From positions 124,001 through 188,000 of the forward strand of contig CAJNOJ010000048.1 of assembly GCA_905250025.1 (NCBI GenBank): DNA of 64,000 bases, read 5' to 3'. The notes under the pieces were generated by a model. That model saw only the letters and a program-made list of their open reading frames with translations, did no database searches and was not told the DNA's origin. The position numbers and the translations under genes were made by a program. The DNA is from Adineta ricciae (taxonomy: Eukaryota; Rotifera; Eurotatoria; Adinetida; Adinetidae). Numbering within the stretch: position 1 is the first letter of the stretch; each line of letters starts with the position of its first letter. Positions 1 through 46,671 of the stretch are shown one piece after another.

Positions 1-3000
1 CCCGAACGTGAAACACTCGAGTATGCTTGGCAAATGGAAATCATTCTTGGCAAAATCGCGGCTCGATTGACAACAATTCAGGTGTGTTAAATGTCATTTC
101 AAATCATTTGAAGTTTCTCCTTCTTTGTAGCTGGAAAAAGTGCTCGGATTTGTGAAGAATTTCTATTTACAAATCATGGAAGATGAATACACTCTCACTC
201 GTTCGCCTGTCATCGACAAAACAAAATGGATTGAAAAACTAAAGTACGACGTGCTACGGTTCAGTTTAGATTCTATCGATCTCAATCTCGTCGAAGTTGG
301 CAGTGCAGTTAATGTTCAAGTAAGTCATCGACATCGGATTGACCCACAAGGACTATAGCTATTGACTTTTAGATAGCGCCCATTCGTCTATGTATGTGTA
401 ATATGCATACAGCATTGTGTAACGAAAGTTTAACCTTGAAAGTTGGCAGCATACAAGTTCGTCAGTTATTACGACTCTATCCCGGCTCGTGGTTAGAAGC
501 AGGTTCGATTCATGTTCCTGAACTTCGTATCAATGCCAAATTTGAATGTCATCCGCCATCACCAGCGACGATCAGCGAACAACTGGATTTTCTTCGTCGA
601 CATGATCAACATTCTCAACGCTTACATTTTCTCTACAATCCCAAATCTCAACAAACGTTAAACATCCCAAACATCTCAACGAATTTGAAGCGTCCATCGA
701 ATGTTGGTCTTGCAACGAATGCCAATGTTTTATCGTGCGCCTGTCTTGGTGGCTCGTCGAATTACTACACGCTTGTGCAAGGGGGACAATTTTTCAAGAA
801 TACATTTCGTCTCAGTGAACAATTCTCATTTGGACGTTCGTTGTTTCGTCCCGACGTTCACGTTTTGTATTCACATGCAATCTTCGAACAAAAGTATAAT
901 TGGAATACTTACGAGCGTTTCCATAAGTTTCCCGATGAATTAGAAGATGAAGAAATTTTCTATCCATTCGATTTTTGTGCACAACAAACACAACCCGATG
1001 AAACCCAATCGCCGGCGATCAACGAAAATCATCTGCGACATAGTGTTCCCACTGATTTGTATTCGCTATCACGAACGAGTTCAGTTAAAAATATCAAACC
1101 GAAATCAGTCATCGAGCGAAACCAACACAAACGTTCGTCGTCATCCATTCCGTTAAATAACATCAATCCAGCTTCCTCACCTTCGCCAACAACACCCATC
1201 AGTGATGATTATTTAACACCAAATGATCGATTATCTCCCACAAGTTCCAGTCGTACGAGTCTGAATTCGGCCGTTCATCATCGAAACAATATCATGGAAA
1301 CCTCGTCCATATCATCGTTAACGATGATGCAACAACAGTGCTCAGCTGTCTCGTCACCAATACAGTCGAATACGAATCTGTTCTCCAGATCAGTTGACAA
1401 TGGACGAGATTCACTCACGAATTCATCACGTTCATCATCATTTGATTCGTTAGTAGCTCTAGAAGAAATACTACAGAGACAACAGATGAGGAATAGTTCG
1501 ATGTTCATTCATCACAAAGTAATTATCGGAACAAAAAGGCAACATTTGTCTAATTTGCGTTCTATTGTTTAGGGTGTTTCATCAACAACAGAACATAACA
1601 AAATCCAACAACCATCATTACCCAGTTCGTCATGGATTAGTCTACGCAACCAAATGAAGATGTCCATTCCAAAATCCACTCTTCTGTCCACAACGTATAT
1701 CCGCTATTTATCACATTATCGTTCTTCAACATGGTCCAATACTGCAACATTTCCACCCAATATTCAACGTGAACAAGTTGATCCACGTCCATTACTTGAT
1801 TTCGATTGTGTATCTCAAGGCTTCTCGTGTTCTTTCCTATCTGAGACTTCTTCGTCTCAATCATTCACCACTCCGCCATCTCGACAATCACAGCAGCAGC
1901 AGCAGCAGCAACAACAACAACAACAACAAAATCAGTCACAGTCACTATCAGCAACAACAGTAAACACTCGACCGCGTCCATCAGTTGCGCAATCGATGTC
2001 CCCGATTAACTCTTCGAATAACATTGCAACCGAAAAAGAAATATGCCTTCGGTTTATTGGAGCGTTCAATATTCTTTTGACACCACTAATGTTGGAATGT
2101 TTAACCGTCTACATCGAAAAATGGAAAACATTTGATTTGCATCCGATTTCCATTCTTGATGGTCTCCACGTTCGAGCCCAAACACAATCGAATCCGTCTG
2201 TCACATCGATTGACCTATCAGCAACTAAAATTTCTCTTCAACTACCCAAGATCAATGTTTGCTTACTACAAGCTGGTCTTGCAGAAGACAATGTTCAATT
2301 AACTGAATTACGTACACCTATAGATATTGTGACGATGTCTCTCTTTGCGCTATCATGTAAACAAATTCAGATGGAAACGATTCTCTCGAAGCGCGATCAG
2401 TCCACAGCTGGCGTTTTCAAGATTCAATCGATTACGGGACAGTTTCGTCGATTCGAAAATGATTTTTCCTCCATCGAAAATGTCAATATCCATGCTATAC
2501 AATCGCAACGTTGTCGTTTACAATTCCGTTTAGGAAATGACATTCAAACACATCTACCACTTGGCGTCAATCGAAAGAATGTGGGTTTTGTTATGAATGA
2601 ATTTGGCTTGCAAAGATTATGTTTTAAATTAATTAATAATGCAGCGAAACAGCAGCAACAGAGAAAGTTTATCTCGCCAGTTATGACTCAAGTGGATGAA
2701 ACACATACATCGAGATCGTCGGCAAAACATAAATCCAAACGAAAACAATCGACAGACGTAAGTTTGAGATTTGATCAGTATGTATCATTTACCAGTATTG
2801 TTATCAATTATTTCAGCCACTACTGTCGTCGGCAATCAATTCCCCGACAAACATCACATCGACAGTGACTTCTTCCAGCGCTTCATCGAGTAGTGTATTT
2901 GATGGTTCGATCGATCATGTCTGGATCTCATTTCCAGAACCACCACATCATACGCATTCAACATCGAATTCTTCGAGACGTCCGCGGACGAGTACGACTA

Positions 3001-6000
3001 GCGCCAAGCAAGCGCCGGCACCAAAGAAACTGTTTTCGTACACGCGATACGATTGGAATTTCCTGTCGACGTTATCTCCCACTGTTCTCGGCTGGTTTTG
3101 TGTCATTAATCGAATACAAAAGCCGATGGAAAAGTTTCTTCATAGACGCGAAAAGCGACTCGACGCTGTCTTAGCGTATTTTCTTGTCGAAACGAAACCT
3201 ACATTGACTCTATCAAAAAGTAAATTCTATGATTTGTTCACTCCGAAAACAAAATACCTTCTTTCACATCCGGTTTGTCAACTGGTTACTGAACTTCGCA
3301 AACAATTCAATCATAGTACACAAATGCATATCAATCTTCAACCGATTATTGTGCCTGAATTGCAAATACTCAAACAAGGTATACGCGGAGCTTGTCATGA
3401 TTGGGCAAAAATCATTAAACAACAGCCACATCAAATCATCGTTCAACCCATCACATTACCACCATCAACTTCGCCAATCAATGTTATTTTACCCACTTCT
3501 AGTAATGAACAAGAACAACCACCAGCTGTCGTACGAGCGCCAACGAAAGTTGATCGTGTCCAACGTTTTATTGGACATGAATTTGTCAAAACACATCCAC
3601 GTCAACCAGCGACAGGCCCTATAAAGCTACAGGACGGTCTCGATCATGGTACAACCAATGGATCTGCTATTCGAAAGCGCACAATAGTACAAAACACGCG
3701 AAATAGTGCTAACAACAGAGAAACACTGATTGACATGATTGGCGACAGTAATGATCCGGGTGTGGGCGAAACTCGACGTCCATCTGGCTTCTTAGGTAAA
3801 GAACGCTCTTATTTCTTCAGATCTATAATCAAGTTATGGATTAAAGACTAAATCGAAATATTCTTTTCTTTTTCATAAGTAGTTATGCGAGAAAAAGCCT
3901 CTAACGGTAGGATTGGTATTTAGAAACATACGTTTTTGCAATATTAGCTTTGTGTCTTGTGCTTAGTGAATGATGAATGAATTTAGAATGAGAGATGTGA
4001 AGTGTTGTCCACCTGAGGTAACCAATAGATAGCCTATCGCAGGGAAGGATGTAACGGGAGCATTTATCTTCTTGAATCATTTCATCTTTGCTTATCAATG
4101 ACTATTACACTATATTATTCGACGATTGAGTCATCTTCTTCTAAGGGATGCTTGAAAGCTGAACTAATTCACATCGATCTTCTTTAGTCAAATGACTGAC
4201 TATATCATATCCTCGCCTTACAATCGAACACAGTATCTACTTAGAAGTAATCCTTGTTATTATATGAATCGTGGCGGTTTAATTCTGAGAAAGAGTTTAA
4301 TTCACTTTTTCATCAACACTTGGAAAAGATTTGTCGAACTACGAAAATCTTTTGATTAGTGTTTATCTCCATTCACTATCTATTATATAAATCCTATTGT
4401 AACCAAAACTATTAGTTGACCAATGTCATTTCCCTTTCCCAAATTTTTCATTTCTGTTGTTGTTTGTGAACATCCCTTACCCATAAGTAAGACTTCATGA
4501 ATGTTTTTATAGAGCCAGCTTCGGGTTATGTAAATGTAGCATATCAAGAAGGTAAGCGGTCTCATTTTTCAATGGTTGAATTAGCAAGAAAATCTAGCAA
4601 ATGTTATCAAATACTTAAAACTTTGCTTCTTCTCACGCTCTCATTCACATGGCGAAAGGAATTGACATGGGCCGAACAAATGTGTTCATATGATAATGCA
4701 AACTTCTAGATGCATGTGCATGACGTTGATGCTTTTTCATTTTAACGAAGAATGGAAACGAAGTCTTTGGTGAATGTTTAACATTCGTTTGCTTTCTCTT
4801 TAAAGGTGATGCGATGCGACGTTTCGAACCGACAGTGAACGTTAACAATACAAATGGTTACAAACGTTTAAGTATTGGCCATGATGAGTCCGATTTCGAA
4901 GGTAACTCTAGTGCCATTCGCTCAGCGGACAATGCTCATGATAATGAAGCGGTGTATTACACCGACAGTGCTCGAGAGTATGCGGACTCAGTGGAACAGC
5001 TATTTAAGATTTTACTTGAATATGCTGGTGTTGAATTATCTGTTTCATCGTCAATCGAACCATTGTTTGAAAAATTAGGTCAGACAGTTCTAGCATCAGC
5101 ACAGATCAAACGATTTGACGTGAAAATCCTCCCCAACGAACCAGCAAATGAAACTCAAACAAATGTAAATCACCAGCCATCATCACCACCAACCACAGTT
5201 CAGTTTCGAGTGCCACATATTCGCCCATCGATATTGAACACATCCAACGAACTATCGATCCTTTCGGTAACAAATTTAAGCATTCAAAGTGTCTGTCGGC
5301 AATCACTCGAATACGACCGATTACATTCGGCGAACGTCCAAGCTGGTATACGTGTACAGCGTGTTCAACAAGAAGTCAATCTTTCGTTCATTCGCTTGGT
5401 TTACCAGTTCTATACAGTTGTCGGTAATGCTGTTGAATACACTGGCATCGATGAAATAACGAGAACAGACGCGAATACGAACGAACAACAGAATGATGCA
5501 CTCGATACTTCTGGTATTATGAATCCTGATAATGGTGTTCAAAATCTTGTTTTACGAACTCTCGAGCCGAGCATTCTTCAACTAGATTCTCAGTATAATG
5601 ACACTGGACTCGATCATCCCGAAAGACAATGTTGGAAAAAATTACGAGAATTGGTCGCGCATAATGCTACATCAGCAGTACCTAAACCAACACAACCACC
5701 TGTAACTACCACGAGCCGGAAGCAACAACGTAGTGGTTCACAACCACCTAATGAGAACATACCACAACAGCAAAATCAAACAAGATTGATCGGTGCTAAT
5801 GGAAGTGCTGAAACACTTTTACTTTCGTCATTTGGTTGGTTAATTATTGATGAAATACATTATGCAGCTTCGTTGGGCGGATTGAAAGTGGATGGATGCA
5901 TGGGAAAAGTTCAAGGAAGTATTAGCATATCTCAAAGACTTCGAGCTTTACAAGCAACGGCCAATAGTCAACATACGAAGAAGTAGGATGATTATACGTT

Positions 6001-9000
6001 TACATCGAGATGATAAATGTGCTCATTTCTAGATATGATGGTTCATTGATTGTCCAAATTGGTTCGACATCGCTCTCACTTAAAGAAACACTTTCTACGT
6101 CAGCAGACAATCTTCCGCACTCGACTGTTCCATTGACTCATCCATCTTCGTCGAATATTCCTTCTTCGAACCGAGAAATCTCCGTTCTTGATATTATCGT
6201 CGGTAAATCACGTGCGCTAACATCTCTTCAAACTCGTGGAGTTAATCTGACGTTGAGTGGTGTAACAAACATTGGCACAATTGCGATGGATGTGCCATTG
6301 CGACCTCAAGAAGTTCATGATCTTGTCAATCGGGCCGGTCGGCTAATCACATCCTATGTACAAGAATTTCTTCCCGATGATACTCAACAGACGTCATTAA
6401 CCCCGTCGACCGTCAATGTCGACACTGGAACGATTAATGCAAGTTTGAACGATACCATCGAAGAACCGAACATGTCTGTTCCATTAGAACGTACGATAAC
6501 AAAGAAACGTTTAGGCACGCGTCGTAAAGATACCAAAACTCGAAATGCTAATGCACGTCCATTGGAAACGCAGCAAAGTCTCTCATCAGCGTCATCAAAG
6601 CGGCCAGTTTTTGAAGCTCATATAACTGCTCAATGTCAAGGCATGACATTCTCCACAACACTTCTCTCGACATTAAAAGCCCAGTATAAAATCGGCATTC
6701 TCGAAGGTGTGGCTAATATTGGTGCTACGAAATCACGTTTTACTGCTATCATCCATGAACATGCTCTACATTTTCTCAATAATAACAATAACGATCGTCA
6801 ACAGCCGCCGACAGTTAGTTCCGACAATCATGTTCGTATTGATTTCCCTGAAATTCGTTGTTATGGAAACTATGATATGCAACAAGAACTAGCAAATAAA
6901 AGCAAAGGACATTTGAATCTTCGTACGAAAATCGACTTACTTAAATTAACGATCACAGCCGACTTTCTTGCACAGCTGGTTTTCGTTTCAAAAGTGATCA
7001 TACATGAAATCAACGAAATTTTAGCGAAAGTTTCTGGTTTCGATCAATTTCGGTTTGGTTCAACTAAGCATGGACGATTATCATCGTCATCGACAGTGCC
7101 GATCATGCGTGTTGGTTCGACTGATATTGAAGATGAAGGTGACTACGATGAGGATGACGAAGATGATAACGAACTAGGAAAAGACCAGCAAGCAACACCG
7201 GCAACACCATTTACATACAAAATCCATATATCGATGAGAGGTTTCGAAGTTATGGGTCAGACACCGTCGAATACAACAGTGAAATTCGAGAATGGGGCTG
7301 ATAAAGTGCCAATACTTGTTAAACTAACAAATTACGATGAGCAAAATCCACTTTACCTTTATAACAAACCGCTAATCAACGCTCTATTGTACATCAAGCT
7401 TAGTCTCGGACAACTCTTGCACACAGGTGGTTTTCAAGATGCTGCGTATTTCAAAACGAAACTATTATTAAGAAATTCTTTCCAATCGGACGATCCAGAA
7501 AAAGAAGCATACTTTATTCGTTTAACAAAACCGAGTTTCTACTGGCAACCTGGTGCCATCGATAAAGGAATCCTCTTTTGGTTAAATTATAAGAACACAT
7601 ATGAACACTGGAATGAACAGCGTGGAGCATTCACAACGACTACAAGTGACTCGGCGCGTATACGTTCGATTGTTAATGTTCCGACATCGCCAACAACAAC
7701 TAAAGAACTCAATCTGATGTTTCAGTTACACATTGTAGATTTAGGTATTGCCATTCCACTGCAACAATATGATCTTCCACCAAAATTAACAACAACAGAT
7801 ACTCTACTAACACAAGGAATGACTACTCAACAATCAGTACCGGCCCTAGACGAAAGCAGTGATTTCCTTGTCTTTACTTTGGATAAGACAACGATCTCAG
7901 CGTGTTCGTGTGGTGCGATTATAAGTTCGGGTTCATTCGAAGGTTTTTGCTTTCGTTTCGCTGAAAACTTTCAACAAACAAACAACAACTGGAAACCAGA
8001 ACGCTCATCCTCGTCATGGAATACTATTCTCAACGCTTGTTGCGTTCCGAGCGGACAATACTTGATGCACTCACGTGCGAGACATATTTTGAATTCTAAC
8101 AGCCCTAAATGGTTCCTCAATGTTCAATGGGATATGAAAGGTATCGATATAAATCTAGATTCAACTGTCGGCAAACGTTTTTCTCAACTAATACGAACAA
8201 TAACTTCTACACAATTAATCGAACCAGCCGACCATTCGAATAGTGAGACGAATTCATCATCGAACTTGAATTTGTTGAACACGCAGGCGGGTAGTACGAA
8301 AAATATTCAAGAAAATCTTGATGAAAACGAAGATGATGAAAGAAATAAACGACTGGAATATGAACATTTGATATTGGGACAACGAATTGAAACATTAAAG
8401 TAAGATTCACATTTCACACAAGACCAAACGAAACTGTGTTCGATTTTCTAGACGATCTAATACACCGTATGAAATTTTAAAACCGGAACTGGTCAGATAT
8501 GAATGGTTGGAAAAGGAATTGCTTCACACAGTCAAATCAGAAATCCAACAAATTATGAAGAAACAATCAAATAAGGTATTGTGATTGTCTTTTCCTAGTT
8601 CGAAGCGATTGAAGCAGAGAAAGATGTAGCCATTGTCCGTTAATATATATTCCTATTTGACAAAGACTTTTCGAAACGAATGAGTTTTGTAGCCACTACC
8701 ACAACAACAGCAAGTTTTTACTATGCAACAGCAAAATGAATTATTTCGACGATCAAATATAGCCACGGTTCGAATTTCAATCTAGTCTGAATGTTGTGTG
8801 CACGCCCTATAATAATCGTTGTTTCCCATTATACCGCTTGATGTGAACTATTTCATTCGAACATAATCTCATCAATCTGTTGTGCATTTAGACTGGACAT
8901 AATCGCGATCGAAATCGTATTGATTCACCAAGCCATCGACGAACCCAATCCCATGATGTTAATACCAACACACATCATCTACAGTAAGTTCTTTTACATT

Positions 9001-12000
9001 CATCTAGTCTTTCATACAGAAACGACGCTTTTTATAAAACTGCTTTTATGTGTACCTGCTAATAGTATACGACGTTATCCACTGAGACAGATAGCCACAT
9101 GTGCCTCGGCATTAAGTTTTCACCGTCGAAACGCGTAAGGCATACCTCACTGCTTTGTTAATATTCGTTTCTATCACACTCATAATTTTACTTATTAATC
9201 TGGCTTTTCTACAGATTTTAATACAAAGGGCAGGAGAAGGGACTGATAGAATTCTCAAAGAAATGTTATTCATCGTTTCTGATTTGTTTAGATCGGATGT
9301 CACAGCATATTCATCATCAATACGCGAAGATGAAATAGAGACCGATACACCGCGAGCATCAAGTGCTAACATTCGGTAATATATCTCTTTCTCTTCCAAT
9401 CGATTCATACGATCTCGAATAACTTTCCCATTTAGTTTTCCGACTCAAGATTCAACTCAATTCGATGATCATCATTCCATCCCGACCAGCACTCCCAATG
9501 AAATCACATCAGCGCCAGCTGTTGATTTAGAATTGAATGTACAAATTCAGATCGCTAGTGGTTCATGTAATCTATATACCCGTCGTGATTTAATATCTCA
9601 TTCACCATTCACAACAACCAATCCAACAAAACAACAGCAATCACAAGCGAATATCGGTGCTAGTGTATATATCAACAAAACTGAATATCAAGTGTCCCAA
9701 TTTTTCTTGCCGGGTGTCGACGTCGATGCACATTACAATTCGAAACACAACAATACAACGAATAGTGCTTTGAATAAACGTGGCAGTTTCTACTGTCGAG
9801 CTATGATACAATCGCCAACAACACAAATAACCATACATCCGTTGCTATTGGATTTTCTTGAACAAGCACTTGAACATATTACTTTACCACAAGACCAAGA
9901 ACGACAAACAAATTTACAGCAAGAACAAATGCAAAATATCAATGAAGACAATCCCGAGAATGATCACTTGAAAACAATGTAAGTACTATCGATGTACGAA
10001 TATTTCTCTCATTAAGATTATATCTCCTAGGTTCTTAATCGAAGATCAGTCATCCACGGCATCATTTCCTATCGATGTCGTTGTTAGCCTTTTCATTCAG
10101 CCATCCGTTCTTCTATTCACATGTTTACCAACTCATCCCATGGAATGTGAACTTCGTTTACCTACAGTCGACGTTGTCTTCTCTTCGAAACGTGCTTCAT
10201 TAGACAACGTCCCATCGTCGGTTATCGACAGTGATACTGAACAAATTATCGAAAATTCTCTTGGTGGTCTAAGTTTTTCTCTGTATATGAAAGATTTCAA
10301 ACTGAATGTATACCATCCATTTTCTGGCGAGTCGAAAGTACATCTATTCGAAGATATTCGATCAGGACAATTACGAACGCGCAATGCACTAGCGGTTAGT
10401 GTTCAGTCTGTATCATTCAATATTTCTCGTACACGGTACACTCTTATTGAACGCGACGGTGAGGTTTTGAACAATATACAATTGTCCATTATTGGTCAGA
10501 TCTCGAAGGCACAATTCGAATATGATATAAAACGTTTTTCTGAAATATTAACATTTCCGAAAATTTGGTACAATCGCTCATTGGCACGTCGATTGTTCTT
10601 AGGCGATGAAACATTACCGACAACGATCCCAACAGCATCGCCAGCACCACCGCATTCAACGTCATCGACTGTGACAAAATCAGCGGCTCCAAACGTGGCT
10701 AAAGCAGCCGCAAGTAAACAGTTACGTAAAGAAGCTCGCGTGTTACTAGCAATACAATTGAAAGAATTGCAAATTTCGATGAGAATGTCTAATGTCATGG
10801 GTAAAGTCGAATGGAATACAACAGATGTTTCATCAACGGGTAGTTTAACATTAACGAACGATGGTCAACGTACCTTCTTCTTTTCAATTGGCCTACAGAA
10901 ATCGGTTTTCCAAGCCGACGAGGGTATCGTCGGAGGTATTATTCGGTTGAAAAATCTTCGAACGACAGGTACATTATCGTTTGTTGACTAAACTTCCATT
11001 CATTGAATCGATTCATCTCATTTTTTTAGGCCTCATTCGGCACGGTCTACAAAATCATGCATTTCTCAATGAATCCTCTCATGTCTTCGATGTTCTTACC
11101 GACGCTATTGAAATTCGTCTCGATTATATGAGTTTTCCAACCTTGATGGGTCGTATATGTCATATACTACTTCGCTTAAAAGATGATCATCATGGCACAC
11201 CAGGTAGCCATTCTATGCCTCCTTCGACCCTAGTGCTTGTTAATCTCGAATGGTCACAATTACATCTAATGATAACACGCTCAACGACCCCGGATATAAT
11301 CAAAATGGTTCTGAAATTATGGGAATTCTTCAATGCACATTTACTCAACTCGAAAAGTCTACTAGCGTCGATTCATTACGATTTTCACGATGGTGTACGA
11401 CAAAATCATGTGGAAAAGAAACCGACGAGTGGCCAATCGAAATATGACACAAATATTATCAAACGATATATTGGCATGCACGGAGGAGAATTGATGTTGC
11501 AAGGACACAATTTGACCCTAGTCGTTTTTCATGGTTCAAATTTTAAAGCGCGTCAGTGGGCGTTATTTTCTCTGAACGAGCCACAAATCAATTTTGTCAC
11601 AGATCATGGAGAAACAGGCGATGGTAAGCTCAGTATTTGAATTATTCTATGATATGATCGATCCGTTCCTTGTTTTAGTCAATCAGAAATTATTCTTCTA
11701 TCTTGGTCATCAAGGACAAACAATGCCCAGATCTCGGACAAATATGGCGTCAATATCAAAAGTGACGAGAAACAGTAATGAAGCACCTTCGAATCTAACC
11801 ATTAATGAATGGTTTAATTATGCGAGTTCGACCATATCTGCTGTTGGTACGTATGAGGAATTAGCGAAAGGAATGTTTCTAAATGCATTTTTGCCAGGTT
11901 TACGTGATTTTCCAAGTATGGACGATGTACCGAATCCTGTATTACTGACTAAAGCTCGTTCGAAACAGTACGAACAGAGTGCTGAATCGATCTTTATTCT

Positions 12001-12629
12001 ACCTGGCCTTGAACTACGATTTCAAACACGGCAATTATCCGGTAAACGCTTTCATTCTGTTTCATCGATTAAAACAAAGTTGATTCTGTTCTTCAGGACA
12101 AGTTCATTGTAGTTTCGAAACCGAATTCTACGAGCATATCATGTTTTCATTCAATGCTGAGCATTTCTACTTCCTACATGATCTCATTTCATCCTACATC
12201 AAAGAAAAAGAAAAAGGTAAAAGTCAAGACCTTCCTCGATAACCAATAGCTTGATTTTCTTTAGCGACTTCGAATGATAAACCAAGACAACGATCGCCAC
12301 CATCGGCAACAACCCATCCTATTGATAATGCCGCATTGGCGTCACTTGACGAAGTACGAAGTGATGATTTGCGTCATTTCCATTGCCCGGATGCGAAATG
12401 GAAACTACAACCTACCATCAAACTCCTTACTGCGTATGGAAACGAAGTCGAACCATTCGGTGCTGATTACATTCTGCAGAAACTAGGCTTTCGTCATGCA
12501 CGTTTAACAATACCAAAATGGCTTCAACGTGGTATTATGGATCCATGCGAACAATCCATGACAGTCGTACAGTTATTTCTTATCTTTCTTTTACCAGAGC
12601 GCTTCAAAGAAATGTGCATGCGGCAATGA
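1..12629 (+). CDS. BLTP1: BLTP1 (KIAA1109/Tweek) C-terminal part, 5' truncated by window
   Basis: This is the C-terminal portion of the bridge-like lipid-transfer protein that carries lipids between membranes at contact sites. Exons that I could phase are 1-81, 131-319, 373-1518, 1573-2757, 2817-3795, 4513-4551, 4806-5982, 6033-8399, 8452-8575, 8693-8767, 8892-8983, 9066-9134, 9215-9375, 9436-9978, 10031-10968, 11030-11623, 11679-12041, 12097-12216 and 12265-12629. Vertebrate KIAA1109-like segments are recognisable, such as RLPTVDVVFSS, SRSTTPDIIKM (starting LITRSTTPD here), NEWFNYAS, ISSYIKEKEK and YILQKLGFRHARLTIPKWL near the end. Long Ser/Gln-rich linkers separate conserved blocks. The gene starts outside the window. 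The phase across 8892-9134 does not close with canonical splice sites, and the last residues after 12560 may involve another small intron. Family assignment is secure. Confidence 0.94.
1893..1932 (+). repeat. CAG/CAA polyglutamine tract in BLTP1
   Basis: A run of CAG and CAA codons encodes about a dozen consecutive glutamines in a low-complexity linker of BLTP1. The mix of CAG and CAA argues for an expressed Gln tract rather than a pure slippage repeat. Confidence 0.85.
3796..4512 (+). other. BLTP1: Long BLTP1 intron
   Basis: This 717-nt interval is much longer than the other BLTP1 introns (50-130 nt). It joins a phase-1 donor in the codon after a Gly-Phe-Leu to a small 39-nt exon (4513-4551). 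I see no convincing gene on either strand inside it. If the intron were not removed, the frame would stop at about 3851. Confidence 0.6.
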
Positions 12630-28499: not shown

Positions 28500-29600
28500 T
28501 CAGTTTTGCCAAACAGCTCCACCAATCGAATCCTTTTCGGCCCCAGTCACTGACGCTAAAACATTCGCTTTCTTTTGTACTCGCAATAAACCGATGAATG
28601 CCATTATTAACGCTTCTTTGAAATCAACTACATCCTTCTCGGGATAAACTGCTTCGATCTGGAATTGATCGCGAAGTCGATTTTGTAAACCTTGAAATAA
28701 ATACTTGTTATGCGCACCACCACCTGTGACTAACATTTTACAATTGGCATAAGCAGACTTGCCTTGCTTTTCCTTATCAATAATCATTTCAATCGAGTGA
28801 CATATCTGTTGAATAATGTGTTCAACGTAGGTATGTAGAGCATCATTAATATTGCCATTTTCTTTTTCAATCAATGGATAGACAACGTCCAAACCAAATG
28901 AATTCGATAACGATTTCGGATAAGATTTTCGGTAATAATCTAATTGATTTAATGTCGTCAACAGACTTGAATTAAGTTGACCGATCGACGCTTGTTGGCC
29001 ATTCTCATCATATTCCTTTTGAAGATAGTCTTGCACAAGCTTGTTTAATATCCGATTTGCAGGACATATGTCGAATGCAATTTGATATTTCCGATCGGTC
29101 ATATTGGCAATTCCACCCAGGTTTAATAATAGCCGGTATTCATTAAATAGATATTCTTCGCCGATTGGAACGATTGGTGCACCTTGACCACCATAAGCCA
29201 CATCCATAGCACGTAGATCGTTGACAACAAGTAGGCGAGTTCGTGCGCTGATCGCAGCACCGTCTCCGATCTGTCCGGTCATTCGATTCCATGGTTCATG
29301 GAAAACCGTATGACCATGCGAAGCTATAAGATCGATTTTCTCCACTTCTAGTTTGTATTTCGCAAGAAAATCATTTACGCATTCGCCTATGTAATTACCA
29401 TAGGATGTATGCAGAAGAAGGTAAGCGCGAGCGTCTAATTCCGTAGCAGTCGATAATCTTTTCACCCACTCGGATGAATAAGGAACCGTTTCAGCATGAA
29501 CAATCTGAAATGTCCACTTTTCATCTGCAGAAAAATCTACACAAGCGATATCAAGTCCATCCAATGAACTTCCGCTCATTAGACCAATTACACGCGGCAT
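28500..29600 (-). CDS. anmK: Anhydro-N-acetylmuramic acid kinase, bacterial type
   Basis: Intronless gene for a 366-residue kinase that in bacteria opens and phosphorylates 1,6-anhydro-MurNAc from recycled cell wall to MurNAc-6-phosphate. Diagnostic segments: MPRVIGLMSGSSLDGLDIA, SHGHTVFHEP, GQIGDGAAISARTRLLVVND, YGGQGAPIVPIGE, LLLNLGGIANM, AFDICPANRILN and LVTGGGAHNKYL near the end, and SIGGAVWQN at the C-terminus. The wording (AFDxCPANR, GASVTG-type tail) is closest to what I recall of Bacteroidota enzymes. All main ATP- and sugar-site motifs look intact. It lies between animal genes ALKBH4 and PTCD3 on the same strand, so contamination is unlikely. An animal role could be salvage of dietary peptidoglycan sugar. 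Confidence 0.93.
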   Translation of the reverse strand: MPRVIGLMSGSSLDGLDIACVDFSADEKWTFQIVHAETVPYSSEWVKRLSTATELDARAYLLLHTSYGNYIGECVNDFLAKYKLEVEKIDLIASHGHTVFHEPWNRMTGQIGDGAAISARTRLLVVNDLRAMDVAYGGQGAPIVPIGEEYLFNEYRLLLNLGGIANMTDRKYQIAFDICPANRILNKLVQDYLQKEYDENGQQASIGQLNSSLLTTLNQLDYYRKSYPKSLSNSFGLDVVYPLIEKENGNINDALHTYVEHIIQQICHSIEMIIDKEKQGKSAYANCKMLVTGGGAHNKYLFQGLQNRLRDQFQIEAVYPEKDVVDFKEALIMAFIGLLRVQKKANVLASVTGAEKDSIGGAVWQN

Positions 29601-29744
29601 AGCGTTTAGGCAATAGCAATCAAGTGATATACCTGCTCGTCTTACTCAATGAACTACCTAGAATATATTCGTACGAAAATTAAACAGGACACAAGAAAGT
29701 TATCGAAGATTTTAATGATGAATTAAGAAGAAAAAACACGACAA

Positions 29745-36824: not shown

Positions 36825-38666
36825 TCATAATCGCCGTGTTGTATAATAATATGACGGTTGATTCGTAGACATCGCTTTCGAATTCGTTTTCGAAGCGATA
36901 AATATATACAAACTATTTTCTTTGCGTTTGTGAGAAAAATAACTCAATTGACATTTCAAAATTGAGACGAACGCGCGACGAAACCGAACATTAAACGCTG
37001 TGTAGATAACCTAAACAAAAGAAATGAGTCATGTTTTTCGGAGAATAACTCCATTTACCGGATTGATATTTGAAGAGATGTAGCCAAGCCAACTGGTTAG
37101 ATTTAACAAGGATGGTTTGACACGACAAGATGAACAAACGGCCGCAAGAATATTCAAAATCGAAAATGGAAGCCAAGCGACCAGAAAGACAAAGAATACA
37201 ATGCCAAGAACGGTCATCGCCCGGCGTTCACTTGTTGTTTCTGTTCCACTCTTCAATGCGTGAACCGCTTTACGCACAAGAGTATTGTGAAGAAATAAAC
37301 GTTGTTGAACACTGCTCGTTGGCGTCGGCGATCGAGTTCTACGCAAAACAAAAGAAACGCATTAGATCTCGGGTCTCTTAGAATAATTTTATTAGTGACA
37401 ACGAAGAAATCTTTCTGAAACTTACGACCATTCAGTTTGGTTTAGTTTATCATCTGTGTCAAGTATCGTTTGTGAACGAGACGTAGATGGTGTTGGAATA
37501 GATGAAGAACTACGTAGTTCTCTCAATGATGCGCTCGCATAGTACGACGGAGAACGGACTTTTGAACACGATCGGTGACGTCGTAAGCGATGCGATGTTT
37601 GAGACATCATCATTAGAGACTCGTCGGGATCAGAATAGCATTTTGCTGCTTCTTCTTGTAAACGTCGTATTGTCAACGAATAAGTAACTAACATCAGTAC
37701 ACATGGGACGCAGAAACACACGATAGATCCATAGATAATAAACGAACGATTGTTCAGAACGCAAACTTGTTTATTATTATTGTTAATTACTAAAATGTTT
37801 TGAGTGTCGAGAAATCCGAGTATTAATATCGTACATGAGATACCAATGGAAAACGTCCAAATCGAGAGAATGGTGAAGAACGTTTTGCATTTACTTCGTT
37901 CTCGACTACGGAATGGTCGAGATATACGAAGAAAACGATCGATTGACAGAACAGTCAAATGCCAGATAGATGTTGTACATAATAAAACATCCAGGAAAAC
38001 GTAGATATTACACAGTATAACTGGCAGTTTCCATGAACCTATGCAAATGACAATTCCGACTTTAATCAAATTAGTACAGCAAAGATATTCAAATAGGTTA
38101 TTAGTAATTACATGCGCTACAATCGAGGACTAATCTCTGAAGAATTCTTTCTGGCATCGTTGTCTAGAGAAGTAAAATCTTTCTTTTCCTATGTCTCGAT
38201 ATTTGTTTCATGTCAAATATTAATTGTATTCGTTAAATACACGACAAATTAATGCAGCGGACGTTATCAGACCTTCTATCCGCTCACATAATCAAGCTCA
38301 CATCGAGACGAATAATTTCAAAGAACGTTCTTTCCCGTTAAAATGAAAAAATTCACGGCTAGTAAATACTAACTATCATGCCCTTGTTTGAGACGAGGTT
38401 TTTCTTCACATACCCTGAAAGTCTTTGATAATCGAAAGTGGTAAAACGATGACACTAACGAGAAAGTCAGCAATAGCCAACGAAAACAGAAACCAATTGG
38501 TGACAGTTTGCAAACGTTTATCGAGTGAAATTGCTGCACAAACTAAAAGATTGCCGAGTGCACCGAAAATAGCCAGAATTGATAAACACAACACAGACCA
38601 ATTCAAGTAATTTGAATCAAACGGTTCACTACCGTCGGTTTGATTTGCTGTTGCTGATTGAGACAT
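36825..38666 (-). CDS. Aminergic GPCR, dopamine D2-like type
   Basis: Class A receptor in four exons (38666-38414, 38038-37426, 37338-37059, 37010-36825) totalling 1332 nt, 443 residues. TM2 has LAIADFLVS; ECL1 has the WKLP segment; TM3 has CNIYVFLDVLLCTTSIW with the amine-binding Asp (3.32) and DRF in place of DRY; the ECL2 Cys lies before NNRSFIIYGSIVCF, where D2 receptors have NPAFVVYSSIVSF, so one serine is Gly and another Cys. ICL3 is long and Ser-rich. TM6 has FLVAWLPFSILN; TM7 has SWLGYISSNINPVIYTAFN, giving an intact NPxxY only after splicing of the last intron. The ligand is probably a biogenic amine; dopamine versus tyramine or octopamine cannot be told. Confidence 0.87.
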
Positions 38667-39687
38667 GTTCTAGAAGATAATCTGCTGAATAAACATCGAA
38701 TTAGTTATTCAACTTGACGCAAATGAGTGAACTAACTGATCTTTAGGTGAACTCGAATTCTGTTGAAATAAAGTTTTCCTTAGCTTCCTAATCATCATCT
38801 TATCTACTACTTGCTTGTCTTTTCTCTATCTTTTCTTCGCCGATTATGTTAGGCTTAATAAAAGGATGAGGAAAAAAAACCCCGGTTCTGATCCTAACAT
38901 GGCTACCATTATCATCTTTGACGACAGTACACATGCAAAGCAGTCGTTCGTGCGAAAAAAAGATACCAAATGAATAGGATGGAAAAGAAAAAAAAAGATT
39001 GACGACAATTAAACATGGCATCATGGCCTGCCTTGGACTTTCGCTGTCATTAGACAGGTGTCCCACTTAACTGCATCAAAAATTCATTGACATAATTGTC
39101 AGTGAGCATCAGATTTCTTCGAGAATTTCGTGATGAAACACAAGAAGAAATTGATTGATCAGAAAACAAGATGGAGAGAGGAGGAGAAAGTTGCCTGGAG
39201 GCTGAAACAGATTTTCTTATAGATGGTTGTTTTCTATCATGAAATCAAAATATCTCTTTCTCGAGAAACATAATGAAAACACAACTCCTACGTCAATTTA
39301 TCTTTGTTTAGATTAAACAGACCATACATGGTTTGTTTCCTCAATTGCAATTAATTATATTCATCAAAACGACAAATTGAGTTTTTTTCTTCTCTCTCTC
39401 TCTTTCAATAATACGTTAATTACATCGAGCAAGCGTTTTCAATAGGAGAAAAGCCAACGAAATCCGTGTTTTCTAATGAAAAAAAAAGTAGATTAAAGCA
39501 GCTCACTTTTGTCAAAAGTAAATATATATAACTACAAAGACCTGACAGCTGTCGGGAAATCAAGGCTAGATTATTCATGTTCATTTTTCCAGGACCACAT
39601 TTTGCCTTTATTACAATACTTGTCATAACAAAAATATAAAAACACACATGCACAGATACATTACAAGTCTCAGCTTACAAAACAAAC
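38667..39687. other. Intergenic, nothing supported
   Basis: About 1 kb between the GPCR start and the 3' end of the neurexin-like gene, on the same strand. It presumably contains GPCR promoter and 3' UTR sequence. Short ORFs look random, and poly-A or TC-rich tracts are present near 38986 and 39389-39405. Confidence 0.45.
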
Positions 39688-42600
39688 TTAAGAATTGGAG
39701 ATGTTCTCATGTGGCTGAGTGTATTCGAAGACCGATAAATAACGTTCAGTGATCGATTTCCCAATGATTAGATATTCCTGATGTTTGCTTGAATCGTTGC
39801 GAATCGAGTGCACATGCAAAGATTTAATCTTATCGATTGAAGAGATGAATTCATTCAGGACATCTTTACGATGAATATTCCATGTGCGAAGGCGATATCC
39901 ATCAGTGTCAATCGACAGAAAATGACGTTGATCAAGCCAAGTTATTGAATGAATCTAAAAATAGTTAGAAAATATATGCTTTGGAAGCAGTCAAGTTGCC
40001 TTCAGAAACTAAGTGCATGTTAATTCGCTTTATTAATATCCTTGAGAATGATTAAGGTTTAAATTAGATGTTTTAGTTTAGATAGATCCGCACTTACAAA
40101 AAGAAACTAAATAATAAATGTATTAGTCGTCGAATCGAGTTAAAATGTCTATGATCACACGTAAAGTATGTGTAGCACGAGAGAAATGGCTAAGTTAGAA
40201 AATTCGTAGTAATGTTCTCTACACGTTTTAGTCATTGAAATGCTCTGTTCTTGGGACATGACAGAAATAATGTACGTAACCAGATTTAGTTTCATTTTTA
40301 ATGACATTACTTGTGGCACGATGTTTGAAATCTCTAATCTGTGTCTACGCGACGTGAAGAGAAAAGGTTCTTTCACGGAAACATACAAGGTCAAAATATC
40401 AGCCTGATTGAACTGATTATCAAGTACATACGGTTCGTAGGTATTCTAGTTGCTACACTTCCGACTTCTTCTATCTACTTTTCGTGATCTTCTACAGATT
40501 TGTGTTCTTAATTACGATTCGAATGACGGGTCATTTCCCATTTTACTTACAAGAGGATCTGATATGGTAGTAATCAATGATATTTGCCCCATAACGAGCG
40601 TGACATCCCATATATGCACGAGACCGTGTTCGACTTGTACGAACAAACGATTGTTGTGCATTTGACAGTTTTGTAATTGTTGCTTTTGATTATCCGTATT
40701 CAAATGTCGGAAATCGTGATTGAATATGATTTCTCCATCGTTTAGTTTCCAAATGATAATTTGATTCATGTGTAAGATAGTTAGAATTTGTTCATCGTCG
40801 TTATTGTTCGAGTCATTGATCGGAAATGTGTATTTGGGATCACATTCGAACCGTGTCAAGATCATTGTACAGTTACTTGTCGATCCGACTTTTTGCTCTT
40901 GAGTGATCATCGACAGCGTTTCTAATTTAAACACTACGAAACATGTGTATGAACTGGCGTGTTCAGTGCAAACAACTACAACATAAGATTCATTTTTGGT
41001 TAAGATAATTCGCTGAATCTCGTCTCCGATCGGTGTATCAGGATCGGATTTGAGCTCACGTGCTAAACTACATGAATCGATTTCGAGTAAACCAAGGGAA
41101 ATTCCGCGTCCATATTTTTGTTTACCGGCCATATATAGTACCGGCAAATGTTGAGAGGCGGCAGCTATAGTGCACTTAATCGGATGTGGACTCGTTCGTA
41201 TTGTGTATGTATCGGTAGACCAGATTTTGACGGCATAAGGATTGATATTTGACGATACTTCATAGAATAAACCAATGAGAAATTGACCATCCGATGAGAA
41301 GAGAATATCATGACAAGAACCGACTGATGAGACAGGTAGTTGTGAATGAAAGCTTCCTGTCTAAATCAAAGAATCCAAAAGATATGAATGAGTAAATTTG
41401 GAATAAATCTTACCAGCGCCTGTGCTAATTGAATGCGATTTACATTCGCTGTTGCTAGAATGAGAGGATCCTGAGTTGTTTTCTGACAAGTCTGTAGTGC
41501 ATAACAATCGACGGGATTTTTCGTGTAGAGAAATAAAATTTTTGTTTGAGTTAAAATCGAATTGTTATTCTTTAGAATGGATCGGCGTTTGATTGAGGAA
41601 CGCTTTTGTGCTATGTCTTGTTCGATGTCTAAATTCGCTGCTAGATCACATGAATATACAGCTGAATATGTTTGTGTACTCGTATGATCTTGATCTTTTT
41701 TCAGCGAACGTAACGTTGCTGTGCTAGGTAGATGCGAGTGTGAATGAGACAGATGTGGTAATGGCAGTGGTGGATCACTATCTAATGATATAAGACGGTT
41801 GACTTGGTGATACATTGATGTTGATGTTTCAGGTTGAGATAAACTTGTGTGAATGCAGCAGTGCTCGTTTAAGACACAATCCGAATTTCGATAGGGTAAT
41901 GTCGAGTTTTCCTTCGTTGAAGAGATCAAATGAGAATCATCGCCGCCATTGTCTGATGAACGAAATGACGGTGGTTTCGTTTCATTTGGCGATAGGTATC
42001 GTAACAATTTCGGTGTGGACTTTTTCGACTCACGATCGTCGGATGACGGGGTCGCTGAACGGTTAGTTTGCTGTTGCAAATGAGTATAAGTTTTACCGTT
42101 TGATTCACTGTAAGAATATGGGGAATGTTTTCGTCTTGAATGACGACTGGTACAGTGTAAACGAATGAAAATGAAAATTAAGAAGAGAAGAAAACAGCTG
42201 GCAATGATTGCACCGATCAGTAGGCCTCGGACACCGAATCGCGTCACTTGATTTGAGAACCATTTGGTTACTGGTCCTTGTGTTGGAATAGGAATTGGCG
42301 CGATGATATGTTTCGTATTGATACGTTCGGTGCGTTGTAGATCATCATCGATCGAAATGAATGTTGTTGTGGCACTTGAATCCAACGAGAAAGTCTCATT
42401 CGTGACGATAGAAACTGTACGAGTCGAAGTTTGAGTAAATGTCGGCATAAATGAGGAATGAACGAGATCGAATTGACTTAAGTATGGATTAGGATGAACT
42501 TCTTCGACATCACCTAATCGAATCAACGTATGATTGAGACCATCAAATATTGATTGCCGATTCAAGGAGAAACCTGAAAGGTGGACAAGCCATGCTATCT

Positions 42601-45600
42601 ATACTTTCATCGAAATGGTGACATACCGGCAACGATGCCATTCCATCGTGATGTGTTCGTAAAACTTCCGATACGTAACCGTAGTGGTGTCAGCGAAGAG
42701 CGTTTATCTAATGGTTCCAGATGTTCTGCAAAGACAAAACGAGGGAAGGATTATTCGTTTGTGTAGTTTTCTACACTTACTATTCGATCCAAGTAACTTG
42801 ATTTCTGCTCCATCGATGTATAATTTAATCGCTGTGACATTTCGAACTATTTTAATGACGTGATACAGACCATCTGATACGTGAATGACACCTGGATAAT
42901 AAGCCGGTTGACTTTCGCCAAAGTTCAACTTTATATACGATCGTCCACCCACCTAAAACGCACAACAACAACGAGAGTTTCTATTATCAGAAAGAAAATT
43001 ATCGTACAATTTCATATTCCAGGCTGTATTTTTTCGAGTCCGATTGTAAACGAAAGATATGAGCTGACTTGGATAAAGTTTGAAGACCGAATGAAATTGT
43101 ATCATGTTCGACTTGATGCGCAGAATGGACAATATATTCCAGTGCACCAGCAGCATTGTGTTTACCGAAATAAAAGCCATTCGGCACTAAATTGCAAGAA
43201 ATGTGCTTCATTGAAGACAATGATCACGAATAAGCTTATTACTTACATTTATCACAACGTTCACCTACATAACCCGTTTCAATACAATCACATTTCGTTC
43301 CATCGCGTTCAGTCGAAGTACAAATGCCCGAGTGAACACACGTAAAATCATAGCAAAGTTTGTTTAAATCTATGAACAAAAGACAAACAAGAGTAGAGCT
43401 TGACTTTGGGATAAAACATTGGTTCACTAATCACAAAAAAAAGTACAAATCGGGCAATACAGGAAACAGTGACTACACACAATCGCTTACCAACATTTTC
43501 ATTTGAGTTCATTTCAGAAGAATCTACTATTACTCAATTGTTAGATGAAAGATGCAAACCGACAAGATACGAAAACAAAATACTCTACCTGAACAAACAT
43601 TCACTTTGACACTTCCGTAAATCGATAGAGCAGTTTGATAATCGAGTATTCGTCCATCAACAATAAAACTTGACAAACAACCTTGAAAACCGTACGAACT
43701 CAGACCAGAACCTGTTAGATTATTAATATCATTGTTAGGTATTCCACCAACATAAAGAACAGGCTGGAGTGAAACAGCATTTCGAATACCATTGGCTGAT
43801 AGAGTCGTTAGATTGACGCGATTGTCAACAACTAATTCAATTCTATAGACAACACAGAAAATGATGATACAATTTCATTTCTTGGTGTTTTCCTACTTGT
43901 CAATGCCAATTCTTGTCACTCGGACTTCATGCCATTTTCCATCTGATAATTTCGTCGATTCATCACTTATTACTTGTCGTTTGCCAAATCCGAAATCAAT
44001 ATATAACGCTAAGATTCCTGCCCGTAGTCCGATGGCAAAGTATTCATTCAAACCTTGTGCATAACGATAGAGAATGATTCCATCAGGTACATAAGATCGA
44101 AACAGAAAGTAAATATCCGATTTGCCGTAGTTTTTATTTTGATTCTCCCATTCCGAAAAGGCGATATGTGATGTCTGAGTATCGATTGTAACTAGATTAA
44201 AGAATGCAATATGATAACCAACAAGAATATGCCGACTGTGCGTATAAAACAACGATTGAATTTTTCCTTTTCTTGTTGTTAAACTCTGAAATAAATATTC
44301 GTCGTTAAATTGTAAATCACTCATGTATCCAATAAACGGTTGGAATATATCCGTATCGAAACGACGTGTGTCTCCAACTAGCAATGCGTTGATATTCCAA
44401 CTTGACACCACATAACTCGGAATGCGTGCTTAAAGAGAACAGTGGAAATGCATATTTGATCAAAACATAGAAAGAAGAAGATTTACATTCTCGTCTGTCA
44501 TCATCGACAATCACGGTATATATGCCATTGTAGTCAATTTCAAAATATAGCCAATGCCACTGATCGTTGTTGACATTTTTGCCACATTCGGTGTACTAAA
44601 GAACAGCAAAATATTGTGAATTCTACTATTGTTAGCTTTTTCGGCGCGCTTCGATTACGTAACTCAAACAAAATAGAAAAATAGTATTTAATCAATCATC
44701 CGATCGTTTTTCTGCCAATTGCATCCGGATGTGAAATCAATTTTGTTTTAGTTTGTTTCCCGGGTATCAATACTATCTAATTAAATATGTTACACACGCT
44801 TATTTAAACAGAAATGTTGCAAGTCGGAATTTGAGATTCATTTCGATTTCTATCTAGAGGACAAACACGACCTTGAAGAAAGGAAATAAGAAAATACTTC
44901 GCATCTTCATACACAGATGCGTTCTTAGTAGTTCTCTATTTGGTGTGACATAGATTGTTAATTACACAGAGAATTTCGAAAGAAAAAGTGCAAATTACTC
45001 TCTTGGTAGAGCTTCGATTAACTAGTCTTCTGCATTACATAAGTTGGAACATTTCTATGTTGATGACTGACAAAGTATATATTAAAGATTCTGACTTACA
45101 TTGACACGTGATAATATATGTCTGGTATCTTGTTCAAGCATAGTAATTTCGATCTTTCCATTTGTATGTTCGATGATAATGAACGGAATAATTGTCGAAT
45201 GAGATTTGCGATATGCTAGGGTAAGTAGAACGCCATTTGATATTCGACCGATGGTTCGGAAGTGTACTGATAAACGGAGTGGATAATCAGGTATTTCTCG
45301 ATGACGATAATCGATGAATGCCGAGGAATTAAATGTAATTATGATTGATGGTGTTGATCCTAATCATCAGAAGAGAAAAAGAAAACAGTTGCTTTTCCAG
45401 CTCATCAAACAAGGTTAGGAAAATACGTGTCCAATGATTAACATCTATCATGCCTCATCGGATATTTCTATCATCAAGTATGTTTATTCAATATAACAGA
45501 GATAACTATTAAGATCAATTATTTTTCTCCGCTTGAAGAAATGTGTTCGATCATCGATGCTCATTAGATGAGCGTGTTCGATGATGAAGTGCAAACAGAC

Positions 45601-46671
45601 GTGCATCTACCTGATCGATGTGCCGTTTGTTGGAAAGTGTTCGATTTGACAAGTTCCTTTCCTAAGTAACACTCTTTTGTTGACAGATCGGTTGTGTTTA
45701 CTATGCTGTCGTTGGATAATAATGTAAACAAAATCAGTTTTCTATATTGCTCATGATCGATTAAAAGTTGAAATTTGGATGCGAATGACAACTGTACACT
45801 GTGATTATTTCTTTTGAAATTAACTAGATGATAATGGTGATCATTCGTTGTCAGTGTCAAATTACATTGTTCAATTATGTAACATCGATCCGGTATCGAA
45901 CTTGTTTGATTAACAGCAGGGATAATAACACGAGTCGAGAGTTTTTGACATAACTAAAAAAAGAAAGAGAAAAATAGATGTATCAACGACAGGGGGCCGA
46001 AGAAATGATACAATCAATATATGATCATGGTGATTGTGTTGTTCTCATGATGGTTGAGTGGTTACTTAAGATGTCTCGGTTACTTTCCTTTGTTCAGTAT
46101 AATTAACGATCGTATGACATGCAAAAATATTCAACTGACCAGGTGATTAACTTTTTCTATACGTGTAAACGATTGTGTAAGCTTAGAGAATAGTTCGTAT
46201 TAACCTGACAAGCTTGATGCGTTCGTTTAAATCGGCGACAAACGAAAACAATCAATTCTTCATTAGAGAATGTTTTGTATTCGTAAAAGAATTACTATCT
46301 AGCCTCCAGCATAGACACGAGTATAATTATTGAAATGAACTTTTCCTTTTTTTTTTCTTTGAAAAGACTAAGATGGAAACGTATCCATATGCTCTTTTGT
46401 AAAGAGAATATAATTATGCTAAATCGCACTGGACAGACAGTGTTCGAACATTACTTGAGGTATCATCTGTTGATCAATAAGCATTAATGTGCGTTATGCA
46501 CTCATACAATGATAAATGCTCACGGCCATGTGAATGTCTCCGCCTTCAGAAAAGGGCGTTTCAACTGACAGAAGAAAAAACGAGAAATTTCCATTCGGTA
46601 TTTACCTGTGAACTTTGACTTAAGACAAATGGAAGCAGCACCAACAGATGTAAGATAGGATTGTTTTGCAT
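39688..46671 (-). CDS. Neurexin-like receptor with cytoplasmic WD40-like propeller
   Basis: Thirteen exons close to 4374 nt, 1457 residues: 46671-46606, 45953-45611, 45359-45100, 44595-44487, 44428-43897, 43842-43589, 43369-43247, 43186-43008, 42952-42781, 42725-42627, 42573-41414, 41360-40551, 39954-39688. A signal peptide (NNPILHLLVLLPFVLSQ) precedes a cysteine-bearing region and LamG domains: the first with SSAFIDYRHREIPDYPLRLS, the second with LSDGKWHEVRVTRIG and GFQGCLSSF. One EGF module follows (CVHSGICTS, CDCIETGYVGERC), then a third LamG, then the TM helix GLLIGAIIASCFLLFLIFIFI. A Ser-rich tail of about 200 residues leads into repeats resembling WD40 blades (FSSDGQFLIG with VKIWST, QIIIWKL, GLVHIWDV, YRLRTWNI). 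No PDZ-binding C-terminus is seen. Extracellular parts resemble neurexins, which bind synaptic partners. Confidence 0.8.

Follow-up and report, generated by a model that had tools for sequence, protein, structure and literature searches.

A gene on the minus strand of the analysed stretch of 64,000 nucleotides (G000:C48:124001-188000, from here on the window) very probably encodes, as read from its DNA, one type I receptor of the neurexin superfamily in which the short tail has been replaced by a Ser-rich linker and a C-terminal WD40-type propeller. Neurexins and related proteins belong to the best-studied synaptic and junctional receptors and are understood to signal via separate PDZ or protein 4.1 scaffolds, which bind to a cytoplasmic tail that is normally short in neurexins. 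Literature listings that paired WD40 with LamG, neurexin or EGF, or that paired neurexin with bdelloid or Adineta, show no receptor of this kind in titles and abstract starts, in line with an earlier note on this DNA that knew of no described family with such a domain order, and unannotated animal proteins with a LamG-TM-WD40 architecture may well exist elsewhere. The genome searched was the 130-Mb assembly of the same animal, and the contigs and genes named below (C71, C14, C46, C97, C244, C129, C11 and others) all belong to it.

Gene model and domain architecture

The spliced model (Table 1) starts with an ATG at 46671, closes with a stop codon ending at 39688 and comprises 14 exons for 1468 residues without any internal stop. 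All 13 introns show GT-AG borders and they are compact, eight of them being 65 nt or shorter. Introns of this kind, together with the paired ohnologous copies described below, suggest that the animal is probably a bdelloid rotifer, a group from which a degenerate tetraploid genome has been described. A home-made spliced aligner fed with the model protein recovered identical exons, a consistency check that depends on the model itself. The encoded order is signal peptide, LamG, LamG, EGF, LamG, stalk, one transmembrane (TM) helix, Ser-rich tail and, in residues 1066-1468, a C-terminal domain of about 400 residues. The earlier note had described 13 exons closing in frame over 46671..39688, of which frame and coordinates stood while the exon number had to be corrected to 14. 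Its placement of the TM helix and the first propeller segment in a single exon (42573-41414) is reproduced by the rebuilt model, and Pfam and hydropathy bear out the domain order that it had given from the signal peptide to the TM helix.

Table 1: Features of the receptor gene, with positions in the window.
Feature	Position	Strand	Basis or remark
Exon 1: start codon and signal peptide, 22 codons	46606..46671	-	hydrophobic segment; counterpart in C71
Exon 2: N-terminal region	45611..45953	-	no Pfam match; 38% identity to C71, which places it with the least conserved parts
Exon 3: first part of LamG 1	45100..45359	-	Pfam
Exon 4: middle of LamG 1	44487..44595	-	Pfam
Exon 5: end of LamG 1 and start of LamG 2	43897..44428	-	identity 79% in C71, 78% in C14
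Exon 6: end of LamG 2	43589..43842	-	Pfam; ohnologue comparison
Exon 7: linker exon, 33 nt	43491..43523	-	gene model
Exon 8: EGF domain	43247..43369	-	Pfam 17.4 bits, under the cut-off of 21.5
Exon 9: first part of LamG 3	43008..43186	-	Pfam
Exon 10: middle of LamG 3	42781..42952	-	Pfam
Exon 11: last part of LamG 3	42627..42725	-	Pfam
Exon 12: stalk rich in Thr/Ser, TM helix, cytoplasmic tail (Ser-rich, containing conserved islands), propeller repeat 1 (by eye)	41414..42573	-	
Junction intron, 53 nt, phase 0	41361..41413	-	column and phase identical in C71, C14, C46 and C97
Exon 13: propeller repeats 2-6 (by eye), 810 nt, signature MAG(K/N)QKYGRGIS	40551..41360	-	
Exon 14: repeats 7 and 8 (by eye), stop codon	39688..39954	-	
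AATAAA polyadenylation-type signal, about 75 nt beyond the stop	39607..39612	-	

The N-terminus of the protein is hydrophobic (mean hydropathy 1.61), and Pfam found three LamG stretches (PF02210, 125.3 bits combined), the best of them being LamG 2 at residues 369-500. Tested apart, LamG 1 (about 176-302) reached 41.4 bits and LamG 3 (about 609-700) 27.7 bits versus a cut-off of 22.9. The EGF domain (about 538-570, PF00008) stays under its cut-off as listed in Table 1 and has its six cysteines present. Among solved structures the ectodomain matched best to neurexin-1-alpha chains with an E value of 5e-71, and its strongest stretch, in the displayed part of the alignment, falls on the final portion of the ectodomain of neurexin-1-alpha, which by the usual domain numbering we take to be LNS4-LNS5-EGF-LNS6. 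This match is more specific than LamG content alone and upholds the term neurexin-like used in the earlier note; judged from these alignments, the ectodomain is neurexin-like in the strict sense and not merely LamG-containing. A Thr/Ser-rich stalk leads to one strong TM segment from residue 842 (residues about 838-862) with a mean Kyte-Doolittle value of 3.07, the corresponding value being 3.02 in C71 and C14; two further segments are far lower (1.68 and 1.75). As the flank after the helix is basic and a signal peptide is present, the C-terminus is predicted to be cytosolic. The protein thus has LamG domains interleaved with EGF, as in the neurexin superfamily, and appears from hydropathy and flanking charge to be a single-pass type I protein with a signal peptide.

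Two further observations concern other parts of the window. An uninterrupted frame of 381 codons at 28500-29645 on the minus strand matches bacterial anhydro-N-acetylmuramic acid kinase (NCBIfam, E 1.3e-127) with 425.9 bits, which is under the cut-off of 436, and this kinase-like frame in an animal genome is a candidate for horizontal transfer. Long plus-strand frames at 373-12112 resemble one very large multi-exon protein, possibly a bridge-like lipid transfer protein.

Ohnologous copies and selection

The chain of exons 2-14 recurs with unchanged order in two other contigs, C71 and C14. Exon 1 is present in C71 too, but no counterpart was found in the stretch retrieved for C14. Directly downstream of the receptor gene the window contains a GPCR-like gene (37029-38669, minus strand), and because relatives of this neighbour adjoin both copies, C71 and C14 represent ohnologous blocks. 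Between window and C71 the synonymous sites are saturated (pS 0.746) with a pN of 0.234, and the protein identity amounts to 68% in exon 13, 58% in the last exon and 52% in the tail. For C71 versus C14 the dN/dS is 0.125 overall, 0.081 in the tail and 0.038 in exon 13 (pN 0.003 vs pS 0.077), and the N-terminal region and the stalk are weakly constrained (0.62 and 0.52). These ratios indicate that both sides of the predicted membrane are under purifying selection. The alignment also shows conserved islands in the cytoplasmic tail including TATLRSLKK, QTYSAVYSCDLAANLD and RSS(I/L)KRRS. As the unusual arrangement has been kept in copies of the same genome, it looks real and not like a reading error.

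Three other origins were rejected as well. Conservation among the ohnologues speaks against a chance adjacency of open reading frames, and the low pN at saturated pS against a decayed pseudogene. A contig joined by mistake is opposed by the presence of the TM-propeller join in five contigs, three of the window type and two of the C46 type.

The junction between receptor and propeller

The junction intron has a length of 53 nt in the window and of 51 nt in both C71 and C14, and as the first propeller intron it agrees among the five genes in its alignment column and its phase. A second intron is found in column 356 (window type) or 348 (C46 type) within a gapped stretch, and both positions are likely identical, depending on the alignment. 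Such a conserved position and phase of the junction intron argues against two adjacent genes having been read as one, i.e. a LamG receptor that stops shortly behind the helix, followed by a distinct WD40-like protein of the cytosol. Two genes would agree with the short tails that are usual in neurexins and that are also seen here in the genome's own neurexin of the ordinary kind and its Caspr-like gene. Their separation could also make use of methionines which occur in the tail of individual copies (residue 977 in the window; columns 898, 933 and 985 in C71 and C14) and of polyadenylation-type hexamers inside the copies (AATAAA in exon 12 and ATTAAA in exon 13 of C71, ATTAAA in exon 13 of C14). 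None of these hexamers, however, lies at the junction or recurs in the window, whose coding strand contains neither AATAAA nor ATTAAA between 42829 and 40302; the interval 42000-41000, in which a poly(A) site had been named beforehand as evidence against one gene, is therefore free of both. The three window-type copies have no Met column in common between the TM helix and residue 1187, and this first shared Met falls inside repeat 3. A cytosolic protein started there would lose the first two repeats, which makes a separate cytosolic WD40 protein unlikely. TM and WD40 parts are also joined across introns of 49-77 nt in C46. Taking these points together, we consider two genes highly improbable and prefer one gene that encodes both parts.

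The junction intron might also serve to produce two receptors by alternative splicing, the propeller form after removal of 41413-41361 and a form with a hydrophobic-ended tail when it is retained. An in-frame stop is indeed present inside the intron in all three window-type copies, and the intron-retained C-termini are hydrophobic (FWIL in the window, FIF in C71 and FVF in C14), but a pyrimidine-rich tract encodes hydrophobic residues anyway and these ends may be trivial. We regard this pair of splice forms as unlikely and continue with one receptor that carries the propeller.

WD40 ancestry of the C-terminal domain

On the alignment of the C-terminal domain eight strand endings resembling WD repeats were counted by eye. 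Searched alone, the window domain gave no Pfam WD40 match over the cut-off (best E 0.0039), which was likewise the case for C71, and nothing significant among solved structures (best E 0.49); AlphaFold2 on the single propeller exon (exon 13 only) resulted in a pLDDT of 32.7. A search of the genome with exon 13 led to five matches at E ≤0.001, namely itself, C71 and C14 (68%), C46 (38%) and C97 (37%). C46 passes the Pfam WD40 cut-off (PF00400, 48.4 bits vs 27), and in a profile-profile comparison with hhalign the propellers of window and C71 aligned with those of C46 and C97 over 309 columns with 99.4% probability and an E value of 1.5e-21. The assignment of the window domain to WD40 is thus made through relatives that align with it, of which C46 passes Pfam, and this homology sustains the WD40-like propeller of the earlier note. 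A descent from WD40 propellers is supported by these profiles, from which the fold would follow. A joint profile, which includes C46 and C97 and is not independent of them, retrieved 341 distinct solved sequences at E ≤0.001, and the 60 listed among them are WD40-type propellers by name or design. When the propeller profile was applied to viral and prokaryote contigs, a scope that leaves animals outside, 0 of 32 and 0 of 122 pattern matches, respectively, were confirmed. The genome itself contains 987 WD40 candidates, 150 of which were scored for nearby LamG.

The alignment of the five sequences, which include two close pairs, has 66 invariant columns among 369 ungapped ones. One stretch beginning with MAG(K/N)QKYGRGIS and spanning both subfamilies is invariant in 18 of 30 columns, a value reached in 0 of 10000 permutations that ignore the natural clustering of conservation. 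Such a stretch is difficult to reconcile with a domain of WD40 descent that has decayed and no longer acts as a scaffold, even if the window copy scores weakly for WD40 and C46 clearly. Exon 13 is moreover under purifying selection, as seen from C71 versus C14, and keeps its protein identity between window and C71 despite saturated synonymous sites. Both observations speak against decay, which we therefore judge to be very unlikely; a maintained propeller is the reading we follow below.

A second subfamily

As the propeller is common to a subfamily with a longer ectodomain, the window gene and its relatives form a small receptor family. The model for C46 has 1808 residues in the order LamG-EGF-TM-WD40 with one TM segment, and besides WD40 Pfam detected LamG (103.7 bits, four stretches) and EGF (32.7 bits), with seven EGF domains being counted on the translation. 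Its LamG and EGF parts are joined across an intron of 1.9 kb, and one exon of 5 nt is probably an artefact. From the last EGF domains via the TM segment into WD40 the introns are short, as mentioned above, and C97 repeats that stretch. C97 is truncated to EGF-TM-WD40, as the contig ends before the ectodomain, and C152, whose ectodomain shares 48% identity with the one in C46, breaks off ahead of the EGF/TM/WD40 part. These complementary contig ends suggest that C152 and C97 may be halves of one LamG-EGF-TM-WD40 gene split by the assembly. On C198 the ectodomain of C46 recurs as an allele-like copy, in which an in-frame stop codon takes the place of a Trp, and the LamG matches of C471 mirror those of C152.

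The WD40 parts of C46/C97 and of the window gene are homologous from end to end and share the column and phase of the first propeller intron. In contrast, the ectodomain in C46 is longer (four LamG stretches and seven EGF domains), its WD40 is over the Pfam cut-off and the cytoplasmic linker differs by eye. The LamG region of C46 matches neurexin-1-alpha weakly (E 9e-9) and the ectodomains of both subfamilies are weakly similar to each other (blastp E about 0.001), whereas the window ectodomain is closer to the neurexin on C244 (blastp E 5e-18) than to the C46 subfamily. Either the propeller has moved between receptors or one ectodomain has been replaced or has diverged.

Proposed function

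We propose that the receptor encoded in the window uses its LamG/EGF ectodomain to bind a ligand, either a protein or a glycan, that is presented by another cell or by the matrix. Behind the membrane helix a Ser-rich linker of about 200 residues with conserved islands would lead to the propeller with its eight repeats (by eye), which is predicted to be cytosolic from the signal peptide and the basic flank. One face of the propeller could then recruit partners directly and replace a separate PDZ or protein 4.1 scaffold, with the MAG(K/N)QKYGRGIS loop as the likeliest partner contact. The propeller would act as a permanently attached docking platform, and the conserved islands of the tail are candidate regulatory sites.

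More tentatively, and with about as much doubt as confidence, these genes might represent a distinct class of animal adhesion receptors in which PDZ/4.1 recruitment has been replaced by an attached WD40 propeller, with two subfamilies, one of them neurexin-like, that separated before the ohnologue duplication, and in which retention of the junction intron may regulate the propeller. The genome has kept ordinary neurexin and Caspr-like genes beside receptors with a built-in WD40 domain that are maintained under selection, and can be regarded as a natural experiment. Partners that bind to the propeller are directly identifiable, and the receptors invite the question how adhesion signalling works with an adaptor that is unable to dissociate.

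Comparison with known systems

Named from their translations, C244 and C129 appear to be ordinary alpha-neurexin with six LamG segments on C244, five on C129 and the end REFYI on both, and C11:628500-638400 appears to be a Caspr/Neurexin-IV-like gene with a discoidin-like start and a short tail ending in EWFF. The short tails which the earlier note had ascribed to neurexins and Caspr proteins are thus also seen in this genome. A solved neurexin as query gave 124 matches in the genome at E ≤1, mostly short ones in the EGF region and the best on C342, C11, C244 and C129; the LamG matches of C342 are in line with a Caspr-type gene. The syndecan/neurexin-tail family gave six matches, four of them over the cut-off, all on contigs without a LamG match. 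Because ordinary neurexin and Caspr-like genes are present, the window gene is an additional member rather than the genome's only neurexin with a faulty end.

alpha-Neurexins consist of six LNS and three EGF domains, and the window gene resembles them in its LamG-LamG-EGF-LamG order, its single TM helix and its signal peptide. It differs by having three LamG domains and one EGF domain, and where alpha-neurexins have a short tail with a PDZ ligand its protein continues for about 600 residues past the TM helix and ends with -HENISNS. The -REFYI end belongs to C244 and C129, and the window gene carries the added cytoplasmic propeller instead. With Caspr/Neurexin IV it shares a LamG and EGF ectodomain and the single TM helix, but these proteins have an N-terminal discoidin domain, for which the window protein gave no Pfam match (F5/F8 type C) at E ≤1, and the tail on C11 is short. 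A membrane-tethered WD40 propeller is the feature in common with SCAP and other membrane WD40 proteins, and C46 has a weak match to the Pfam SCAP propeller. SCAP, however, is a multi-pass sterol sensor with a cytosolic WD40 domain, whereas the window gene appears to encode a LamG/EGF receptor of the adhesion type.
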